The notes: a model not told the origin generated them from the sequence alone. Shown: positions 34,694-37,564, numbered from the stretch's first letter. The stretch is DNA of 64,000 nucleotides from Chryseobacterium sp. (GCF_029240215.1 NZ_JARBTK010000004.1:62001-126000), one strand, 5' to 3'. Made by a program: numbers and translations.

Positions 34694-34742
34694 ATTAGTT
34701 ATTATTAAATTTTAAATTTCCTATATTTGTTCAGTAATAAAA

Positions 34743-34815
34743 TACACGGGGTGCCCGCAAGGCTGAGATCATACCCGATGACCTGATTTGGATAATGCCA
34801 ACGTAGGGATGTCTG
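34743..34815 (+). promoter_or_regulatory. TPP riboswitch (THI element)
   Basis: GGGGTGCC..GGCTGAGAtcatACCCgatgACCTGATttGGATAATGCCAaCGtAGGGA, the diagnostic conserved core. Confidence 0.95.
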
Positions 34816-34838
34816 CTTAAAATATTTTCATTTTATGC

Positions 34839-34880
34839 TTTATTCGTTCGCATGCTTATCTGTGGTCAGAACCGAATAAA
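34839..34880 (+). other. Putative riboswitch expression-platform hairpin
   Basis: TTTATTCG-TTC (34839-34849) pairs with GAA-C-CGAATAAA (34869-34880), 15 bp before the ATG at 34896. Confidence 0.5.
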
Positions 34881-34895
34881 TCAATTCAAAATAAA

Positions 34896-35618
34896 ATGGA
34901 AGTAACAAAGTATTCCGGAGAACTTATTCCCCAACAAGACAAAAACTGGCAAGGAAGACCCGAATGGTTTTTCAACCGAGAACATACCGATACCTACGAA
35001 TTGTGGTATGAAGGCCGATACAAACGTGCCGAAATCTGGCAGAAAAAAGTAATGGAACAGCTCGTTTCCAAAGATCAGAGAGTAAAAACACTATTAGAAT
35101 TCGGCTGTGGCACTACCCGATTTACCCGTTGGTGGAAAAACATTGGGATCGAAGCAACAGGCGGAGATATTTCGCCTCTAATGCTCTCACAGGCGATTCA
35201 TCTTTTTGAAGGCGATCTGGTGATGGCAGATTCTCATTTTATGCCTTTTAAAGATCATACTTTTGATTCATTGGCATTTATCACAACATTTGAATATTAC
35301 AAAGATCCTGTAAAAGTCATTTGTGAGGCGGCTCGCGTTGCCAAATACGGAATCGCCATGGGGATGATGAACAGAAACTCTCCTAAAGTTGCACGAAGAC
35401 GTATACAGCAGTTATTTGGAAAAAATCCTTTTTATGTGACGGCAACTTTCTACACACCGAAAATGCTGACCGAAATTATCGAAAAAGCTTTAGTCGGAAG
35501 AAAATATACGATTGAATGGACGTGTACCGGATTACCAAAATGGTTTCCTGTTCAACAATGGAATGTTCCGGTTGGAGATTTTTTTGGTTTGTATATTCAG
35601 CTAAATGACGTGGAATGA
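34896..35618 (+). CDS. Class I SAM-dependent methyltransferase
   Basis: LLEFGCGTTRFTRWWKNIGIEATGGDISPLMLSQA motif I; FDSLAFITTFEYYKDPVKVICEAARV. Confidence 0.88.
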   Translation: MEVTKYSGELIPQQDKNWQGRPEWFFNREHTDTYELWYEGRYKRAEIWQKKVMEQLVSKDQRVKTLLEFGCGTTRFTRWWKNIGIEATGGDISPLMLSQAIHLFEGDLVMADSHFMPFKDHTFDSLAFITTFEYYKDPVKVICEAARVAKYGIAMGMMNRNSPKVARRRIQQLFGKNPFYVTATFYTPKMLTEIIEKALVGRKYTIEWTCTGLPKWFPVQQWNVPVGDFFGLYIQLNDVE

Positions 35619-36664
35619 GTGAAACTTTAGGAAAAATAAATCATTCCCAATTTGAAGATTTCCTGAAACAGCGATGCGGAAAAAAACGTGATGAAGTGCG
35701 TATTGGTCCTGAGTTTGGTGTTGATGTTTCCGTTGTAGATCTGCATGGCGGAAAAGCGATGGCTTTGACGAGTGATCCTTTGTCTCTGATTCCTTCTTTG
35801 GGTTTGGAAGAATCAGCGTGGCTGTCGGTTCATCTGATGGCGAACGATATGGCAACGACGGGTTTTGCTCCGATGTTTGGGCAGTTTGTTTTAAATCTTC
35901 CGGCACAACTTTCAAAAAATGATTTTGAAATCTATTGGAATTACATTCATCAGTTTTGTAAAGACATTGGTGTAAGCATTACCGGCGGACATACGGGATT
36001 CATCGAAGGACAAAATTCTACAATCGCAGGTGGCGGAACTTTGATTACGATTGCTCCGAAAGATAAAATTTTAGTTTCAAAATATGCAGACATTGGAGAC
36101 TCAATTTTAGTGACCAAAACAAGTGCACTTTCTTCAACAGCCATTCTCGCAATGAGCTTTCCAGAAACAGTAAAAAATAAAGTCGGTAAAGAATTTTACT
36201 ATTCTGCTTCAGCGTCTTTTTACGAAACCTCATCTTTGAAAGATGCTTTAACCGCAGTGCAAATTGATAATTCCGGAGTTACAGCAATGCATGATGTGAC
36301 GGAAGGCGGAATTTTGGGAGCGATTTACGAATTGGCAATTGCATCAGGCAACGGAGCTGAAATTATTAACGAAAAAATTCCAATTGGAGAAGTGCAGTCA
36401 GCAGTTTGCAATCTGTTTTCGTTAGATCCGAGATATTGTATTGGTGCAGGTTCTATGCTTATTACCTGTAAAAAAGAAAAAGCTTCGGAGATTATTTCAA
36501 GACTGGAAACCAATCAAATTCCCTGCGCAGAAGTGGGAAAGATGACCGAAAAATCTAATGGAATTAAATTAATTGAAAACGAAAAAGCAAATGATTTAAT
36601 GTATTTCGAAGAAGATCCTTATTGGAAAGCATTTTTTAACGCTTATAAAAACGGCTGGAAATAA
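35615..36664 (+). CDS. AIR synthase-related protein (ThiL/HypE-like ATPase fold)
   Basis: ALTSDPLSLI...WLSVHLMANDMATTGFAPMFGQFVLNLP; SITGGHTGFIEG; HDVTEGGILGAIYELA. Confidence 0.85.
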   Translation: MSETLGKINHSQFEDFLKQRCGKKRDEVRIGPEFGVDVSVVDLHGGKAMALTSDPLSLIPSLGLEESAWLSVHLMANDMATTGFAPMFGQFVLNLPAQLSKNDFEIYWNYIHQFCKDIGVSITGGHTGFIEGQNSTIAGGGTLITIAPKDKILVSKYADIGDSILVTKTSALSSTAILAMSFPETVKNKVGKEFYYSASASFYETSSLKDALTAVQIDNSGVTAMHDVTEGGILGAIYELAIASGNGAEIINEKIPIGEVQSAVCNLFSLDPRYCIGAGSMLITCKKEKASEIISRLETNQIPCAEVGKMTEKSNGIKLIENEKANDLMYFEEDPYWKAFFNAYKNGWK

Positions 36665-37293
36665 TGAAAAAGCAAACTGTACAATCAGGAATTTATCTGA
36701 TTATTGATCCTTCAATGGATGAGGAAATTCTATTTTCTAAATTAAATTTAATTGCAAAAGAAAAAATATCAGCTATTCAGATTTGGGACAATTTTAAAGA
36801 AGATCAGAATATTGAAGAACTGCTTTTAAAAATTTATGAGATTGCTTCGTCAAACAACATTCCGTTGATCATCAATAACCTTTGGAAATATTTGAAGCAA
36901 ATTCCTTTGAACGGAATTCATTTCGATGAAATTCCTAAAAATTTTAATGAAATAAAAAACGAGATCAACCGTGACTTCATTGTTGGAATCACCTGCAATA
37001 ATGAATCTTCAACAATTAAATACGCTGAAGAAAATCAGTTCGATTATATTTCTTTCTGCTCGATGTTTTCCTCAAAAACAGCAAATAGTTGTGAATTGGT
37101 CAACTTTGAAACGGTTCAGAAAGTTAAAAATATTTTCAATGGAAAAATCTTTTTAGCAGGCGGAATAGATTTAAATAATCTTAAAAATTTAGATGAATTA
37201 AATTACGACGGGATCGCTGTTGTTTCAGGAATAATGAGTGCAGAAAATCCGTCAGAAAGCATAAAAAATTATCATCAAAAAATTAAAAAGTAA
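36664..37293 (+). CDS. Divergent thiamine phosphate synthase/TenI-like protein
   Basis: TIM-barrel motifs PLIINNLWKYLKQIPLNGIHFDE, IVGITCNNESSTIKYAEENQFDYISF, KIFLAGGIDLNN, GIAVVSGIMSAENP. Confidence 0.75.
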   Translation: MKKQTVQSGIYLIIDPSMDEEILFSKLNLIAKEKISAIQIWDNFKEDQNIEELLLKIYEIASSNNIPLIINNLWKYLKQIPLNGIHFDEIPKNFNEIKNEINRDFIVGITCNNESSTIKYAEENQFDYISFCSMFSSKTANSCELVNFETVQKVKNIFNGKIFLAGGIDLNNLKNLDELNYDGIAVVSGIMSAENPSESIKNYHQKIKK

Positions 37294-37297
37294 AGCA

Positions 37298-37564
37298 ATG
37301 AGAATAAAAACCATAGAAAAACTGTGCTGTCCGTTTGACAGATCAGATTTAGATTTAACGATCATTTTACAAGACGAAACCGAAAATATCACAGAAGGTT
37401 TATTAATCTGTGGCAATTGCAAAAGAGTCTACCCGATCATCAGCGGAATCCCCATCATGTCACCCGATGAATACCGTGAATTCAAACTTGAACAACCCGT
37501 TTTACAACGCTGGGAAAAGCATTTAGAAGGCAAAAAAATAGAGAATTTCAGGTTGATTTCATGA
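37298..37564 (+). CDS. Trm112-like zinc-ribbon protein
   Basis: IEKLCCPFDRSDL ... EGLLICGNCKRVYPIISGIPIMSPDEY. Confidence 0.83.
   Translation: MRIKTIEKLCCPFDRSDLDLTIILQDETENITEGLLICGNCKRVYPIISGIPIMSPDEYREFKLEQPVLQRWEKHLEGKKIENFRLIS

Follow-up and report, generated by a model that had tools for sequence, protein, structure and literature searches.

The described systems closest to the locus studied here are the canonical thi operon of Bacteroidota (thiC, thiE, thiD, thiG, thiH, and thiF), a TPP-controlled thiamine locus with a ThiE-family protein, and the TPP-controlled uptake loci of Bacteroides (OMthi and PnuT; PMC5613172), a paper whose main text mentions neither a methyltransferase nor an AIR synthase. 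A third relative is the small protein Trm112. Its eukaryotic partners act on translation components, and a 2017 review gives the function of bacterial Trm112 as unknown and mentions methyltransferase fusions (PMC5372719).

We analysed a 64,000-nt stretch of Chryseobacterium sp. DNA (the window) that contains a cassette of four genes. Like the thi operon, the cassette is TPP-controlled and encodes a ThiE-family protein, but it has no ThiC, ThiG, ThiH, ThiF, or ThiD, it adds a methyltransferase, an AIRS protein and a Trm112-like protein, and it is usually found where the thi operon is missing. With the Bacteroides uptake loci it shares the regulator and the phylum; carriers own such loci too, whereas the cassette itself encodes soluble enzymes only, with no transporter gene. 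The initial annotation of the window had proposed an uncharacterised system, and this agrees with the literature searched, in which we found no description of the cassette; coverage of subscription papers was thin, and an earlier description is possible. The cassette is probably an undescribed means to obtain or rebuild vitamin B1.

Gene Layout and Riboswitch

The features of the cassette are listed in Table 1. All Pfam domains scored above their cut-offs (Methyltransf_11 56.9, AIRS_C 74.7, AIRS 38.8, TMP-TENI 98.1, and Trm112p 36.6 bits). The methyltransferase and AIRS genes overlap by 4 nt (ATGA), the AIRS and ThiE-like genes by 1 nt (TAATG), and the ThiE-like and Trm112-like genes are separated by 4 nt. 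The tight packing of the four genes behind a TPP riboswitch, as first annotated, was confirmed by ORF coordinates, Pfam and the covariance model. The tRNA-dihydrouridine synthase gene dusB begins 60 nt past the Trm112-like gene and is part of the genus-specific flank.

TABLE 1. Features of the cassette and its upstream region in the window.
Feature	Position	Strand	Evidence
TATATTTG, putative promoter -7 element	34722..34729	+	read off the sequence; ends 7 nt 5' of the aptamer
TPP riboswitch aptamer (RF00059)	34737..34826	+	cmscan 70.2 bits, E 8.9e-12 over the whole window
Leader, aptamer to start codon	34827..34895	+	folding; weak
Class I SAM-dependent methyltransferase, 240 aa	34896..35618	+	Pfam Methyltransf_11
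ATP-dependent protein of AIR-synthase fold (new subfamily), 349 aa	35615..36664	+	Pfam AIRS, AIRS_C
ThiE/TenI-fold protein, 209 aa	36664..37293	+	Pfam TMP-TENI
Trm112-like protein, 88 aa	37298..37564	+	Pfam Trm112p

The aptamer scores well above the RF00059 gathering score of 54.3 bits, and the covariance scan found no second riboswitch in the 64,000-nt window. It does lie ahead of the genes, as had been annotated, but it begins 6 nt before the start originally given (34743). The Bacteroidota -7 promoter consensus is TAnnTTTG, which the putative element upstream of the aptamer fits. A predicted hairpin in the leader would pair the start-codon region; the leader does not exceed shuffled sequences in stability (z -0.21).

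Conservation Across the Bacteroidota

Searching 198 Bacteroidota genomes for the AIRS protein gave 7 positive genomes, that of the window among them. The other six loci, which lie in unrelated surroundings, all contain the identical four genes in the identical order. A TPP riboswitch could be identified upstream in 7/7 when the window is included; among the six others, five exceed the gathering score and one lies below it (47.8 bits). A scan of a genome collection with the methyltransferase alignment gave 204 relatives, and the best 80 of these 204 were taken on. In these 80 loci the gene order is constant wherever the contig extends, and the few with fewer labelled genes are due to contig ends or mechanical ORF choice. 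With a covariance model trained on 15 riboswitches, a TPP riboswitch (58.5–81.1 bits) was located immediately 5' of the methyltransferase gene in 80/80 of them.

Chance does not account for the four-gene order, which six independent genomes share with the loci of the collection scan. The initial annotation had suggested looking for this synteny with an upstream RF00059 across the Bacteroidota, and the outcome was strongly positive: the cassette was recovered at 86 further loci in five Bacteroidota classes, with gene order and upstream TPP riboswitch kept. The conservation of the riboswitch upstream of orthologues was likewise borne out, both in the collection scan and in the sample genomes.

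Flanking genes are shared within genera only. The neighbours differ by genus, and we found no constant fifth gene among the cassette loci. A quick tree of the concatenated proteins requires 23 changes of taxonomic order and contains tight cross-family pairs (Ferruginibacter with Pedobacter, and Algoriphagus alkaliphilus with Arenibacter), which suggests repeated horizontal transfer of the cassette. Neither the methyltransferase nor the ThiE-like protein had a match in the plasmid search, where the AIRS protein matched archaeal or other distant relatives only, and the viral contigs searched held no relative.

Two Arenibacter strains have two diverged copies of the cassette each (L070 and L076; L067 and L086), and in Arenibacter strain F26102 two copies lie ~32 kb apart on a single contig. 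In Christiangramia a second TPP riboswitch (38 bits) is found on the opposite strand just past the cassette (L102:8819-8910, -).

Distribution Relative to Known Thiamine Genes

Among 120 Chryseobacterium genomes, the methyltransferase is present in 11 and ThiC in 100, one of the latter being an atypical gene in the carrier G207. Genuine ThiC is found in 0/11 carriers vs 99/109 non-carriers (Fisher p = 3e-10, a value that covers a single genus of related genomes and so overstates their independence). Ten Chryseobacterium genomes have neither ThiC nor the cassette, which shows that the cassette is an option and not a necessity for cells without ThiC.

The G207 gene was rejected as a thiamine gene: it encodes 360 aa and comes directly after a SIR2-like gene and genes of a type I restriction system. 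It belongs to the ThiC family (Radical SAM ThiC, 192.5 bits; L204:5533-6615, in G207:C46, about 75532-76614), and this ThiC-like enzyme probably sits in a defence island.

The same trend is seen across the phylum. ThiC is missing from the window's genome and from six distant carriers, and ThiG is missing in 52/57 carriers. The five that keep ThiG belong to Salegentibacter, Mangrovivirga, Sphingobacterium (two), and Ferruginibacter, and the two of these that were inspected have a complete thi operon, so the cassette is not always a replacement for the pathway. Matches to ThiG or Thi4 that scored under 35 bits were put down to barrel or nucleotide-binding background and rejected. No genuine Thi4 was found in 35 carriers, where the matches listed reached at most 33 bits, mostly through a nucleotide-binding motif. 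The window's genome (93.8% complete) lacks ThiC, ThiG, and Thi4, so these genes give it no de novo route, as in most carriers. That the window itself holds no thi genes, as the initial annotation had pointed out, carries little weight as evidence; their absence from the whole genome is the informative observation.

ThiM and full-length ThiD are missing from all seven sampled carriers; the best ThiD match reaches 57.6 bits over half of the model, compared with 156–166 bits in pathway-bearing genomes. The only ThiE over the cut-off in these seven is the cassette's own, and thiamine pyrophosphokinase (TPK) is present in 7/7. Other TPP riboswitches in the sampled carriers precede TonB receptor genes, and another one in the window's genome precedes a PnuC/PnuT-type transporter. 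No importer specific to the cassette was found. The proposed link between the operon and thiamine is supported by the TPP riboswitch found throughout and by the near-exclusivity with ThiC and ThiG.

In the transporter operon of the window's genome (L011:4197-5811; G000:C11, about 334196-335810), the transporter gene overlaps a weakly acyl-CoA-dehydrogenase-like gene. Its product is possibly a further thiamine-linked enzyme.

The ThiE-like Protein

The cassette protein shares with ThiE and TenI (PF02581) the fold and the thiazole-phosphate positions but not the pyrophosphate ligands. Its AlphaFold2 model (pLDDT 93) has B. subtilis ThiE (2tps) as best structural match, with a TM-score of 0.82, in line with the TMP-TENI domain hit. 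The more specific NCBIfam models are missed, both that of ThiE (94.2 vs 145.1 bits) and that of TenI (50.5 vs 251 bits). From the 2tps literature we take R59, K61, D93, D112, and K159 of B. subtilis ThiE to be the ligands of the HMP-PP pyrophosphate and Mg2+. These positions were cross-checked on E. coli ThiE (K-12 record). In 71 orthologues, R59 is replaced by W (71/71), K61 by N or H (69/71), D93 by N (D is retained in 3/71 only), D112 by P (62/71), and K159 by A, S, V, or T (69/71). E. coli ThiE retains all five ligands, as does the canonical ThiE of two cassette-carrying species.

The site is under constraint rather than decayed. The family retains Q57, N92, T156 (as Ser), T158, and the phosphate-site glycines (B. 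subtilis ThiE numbering), and has its own invariant residues W41, C132, and C143, along with C111 in 60/71 orthologues. As the pyrophosphate-binding residues are gone, the protein should not be a normal TMP synthase; the name "ThiE-like" from the initial annotation is thus right as to fold and family only. The loss of the HMP-PP site agrees with the missing ThiD, the maker of HMP-PP, so that two independent observations point in the same direction.

The AIRS Protein

The AIRS protein has the fold of ThiL, HypE, and SelD and the four ATP-site aspartates common to them (D37, D54, D78, and D227, all invariant), but not their signature motifs or cysteines. Together with the AIRS and AIRS_C hits this places it in the AIRS superfamily. 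Its predicted model (confidence 92.9) is about equally near to the three enzymes. The top match is Aquifex ThiL, level with HypE and SelD, and an identity as ThiL was discounted because the other two score equally. The NCBIfam cut-offs are missed by far for ThiL (68.7 vs 184 bits), HypE (71.6 vs 251.6 bits), and SelD (52.7 vs 125 bits). DVTEGG and GGHT replace the DLSDG and GGDT of ThiL, the C-terminal cysteine of HypE is absent (the protein ends in ...NGWK), and so is Cys17 of SelD. The counterpart of SelD Lys20 does align: G6-K7 is invariant, and K7 aligns with K20 in profile and multiple alignments. An AIRS fold, as first annotated, is therefore well founded, whereas the ThiL part of that assignment does not hold.

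Haloarchaea have full-length AIRS relatives (~30% identity). The best archaeal ones, in three Haloarcula species, are divergently arranged next to genes for a thiamine-binding protein and for the substrate-binding protein of a thiamine ABC transporter, a context that ties AIRS relatives to thiamine independently of the cassette. Relatives in Halobacterium, Haloferax, and Acaryochloris have other gene contexts. The divergent Haloarcula pairs are located on plasmids and adjoin katG (L211, L216, and L217).

The Methyltransferase and the Trm112-like Protein

Of the four proteins, the methyltransferase is under the strongest constraint (mean pairwise identity 83%, 81 orthologues), compared with 60% for the AIRS protein, 47% for the ThiE-like protein, and 60% for the Trm112-like protein. 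It reached none of the NCBIfam models. In the Chryseobacterium carrier G290 (L166) it matches from residue 49 on, the conserved N-terminal segment being missing or out of frame.

The Trm112p hit of the small protein lies above the cut-off of 22 bits, and C10, C11, C38, and C41 are found in 71/71 sequences; the NCBIfam model Trm112_arch is missed (56.4 bits, cut-off 77). The protein matches the archaeal Trm112 chains 6zxw_H and 6f5z_C, and one of these structures comes from a Trm9-Trm112 complex. These matches make it plausible that the methyltransferase and the Trm112-like protein pair up. A four-cysteine protein encoded with a class I methyltransferase is what the cassette has in common with archaeal and eukaryotic Trm112 holoenzymes (6f5z, 6zxw). 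The known partners have tRNA, rRNA, or release factors as substrates, whereas the cassette is bacterial and lies in a thiamine-regulated operon.

Proposed Function and Alternative Explanations

We favour, with a probability of roughly 55%, the reading that the cassette is a self-contained module of thiamine supply, probably spread by horizontal transfer, which salvages or reassembles thiamine from vitamers without HMP-PP. The genes follow a TPP riboswitch as a single operon-like unit and are nearly exclusive with the known pathway. As the carriers usually lack the known route yet have TPK and uptake genes, we infer that low TPP would turn the cassette on and that thiamine or thiamine phosphate would be rebuilt from imported breakdown products or other vitamers. 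The methyltransferase, as a heterodimer with the Trm112-like protein, would methylate a small substrate, and the AIRS protein may spend ATP to phosphorylate or activate another one. The ThiE-like barrel would keep the thiazole-phosphate half of the ThiE site, make no use of HMP pyrophosphate, and join, exchange, or remodel the pyrimidine side, aided by C132 and C143. The product could then enter the TPP pool, either directly or via TPK.

A bolder proposal, which we consider distinctly improbable, is a thiamine route in which methylation takes the place of pyrophosphorylation in activating the pyrimidine. The leaving group of a pyrimidine vitamer (in aminomethylpyrimidine, for example, the amine) would be methylated by the methyltransferase-Trm112 pair. 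One of the cysteines in the ThiE-like protein would displace this group and hand the pyrimidine to thiazole phosphate, and the AIRS enzyme would provide ATP-dependent phosphorylation. Such a route would account at once for the presence of a methyltransferase and of the new cysteines and for the lack of ThiD, ThiM, and an HMP-PP site.

The near-exclusivity with ThiC and ThiG would also be expected if the cassette were an alternative de novo route, or half of one, that makes HMP, thiazole, or thiamine phosphate by chemistry unlike that of ThiC and ThiG, with the carriers being prototrophs. AIRS-fold enzymes (PurM, PurL, and HypE) close rings or activate amides with ATP, which the AIRS protein could do here, and the ThiE-like cysteines could handle sulfur. 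Four genes are few for two heterocycles, however, and the carriers retain TPP-controlled uptake genes and TPK. In addition, all thiamine-prototrophic leaf strains (21/21) had both ThiC and ThiG (PMC9666465), although carriers may not be among those tested; the main text does not name the carriers Leaf394 and Leaf176. A de novo role is therefore rather unlikely. The same distribution and TPP control fit a repair module as well, one that would undo chemical damage (by oxidation, ring opening, or deamination) to thiamine or TPP and help importers of scarce thiamine. Nudix damage pre-emption, known in thiamine metabolism, follows a similar logic, and the AIRS protein could re-activate a carbonyl with ATP. 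Methylation has no obvious role in repair, though, and the ten ThiC-less congeners survive without the cassette. Repair should also benefit strains that synthesise thiamine, yet the cassette occurs in 0/99 ThiC-bearing congeners, and we regard this explanation as unlikely.

The structural matches of the ThiE-like and AIRS models, to 2tps and to Aquifex ThiL (the latter tied with HypE and SelD), are what an ordinary if divergent TMP synthase (ThiE) and thiamine-phosphate kinase (ThiL) would give, with the methyltransferase and its activator as passengers. This is very improbable given the loss of all five pyrophosphate/Mg2+ ligands and of the DLSDG and GGDT motifs; the substrate suppliers ThiD and ThiM are absent, TPK renders ThiL superfluous, and the supposed passenger methyltransferase is the best conserved of the four proteins. 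The extreme conservation of the methyltransferase would suit an enzyme that, with Trm112, modifies RNA, protein, or a release factor in an operon that couples this modification to TPP supply, as would the translation targets of the eukaryotic Trm112 partners (PMC5372719). Across five classes, the pair occurs strictly together with the ThiE-like protein, the AIRS protein, and the TPP riboswitch; this speaks for a common pathway of small molecules and leaves methylation of a macromolecule with a very slight chance only.

Significance

None of the thiamine routes known to us includes a methyltransferase paired with Trm112 or a ThiE barrel that lacks the pyrophosphate site, and for this reason the cassette is provisionally regarded as a new system. 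With it, a bacterial Trm112 may gain its first assigned task, and two well-studied folds a so far unknown reaction. If the methylation route were true, a bacterial Trm112 would have a known function for the first time and, to our knowledge, Trm112 proteins would have their first in small-molecule metabolism. With four genes, the system is amenable to knock-out and in vitro work. Around 200 public genome loci (204) encode relatives of the methyltransferase, and most of the carriers tested lack the genes usually used to score prototrophy. If the cassette rebuilds thiamine, predictions of vitamin requirement and models of cross-feeding for these Bacteroidota would be wrong.
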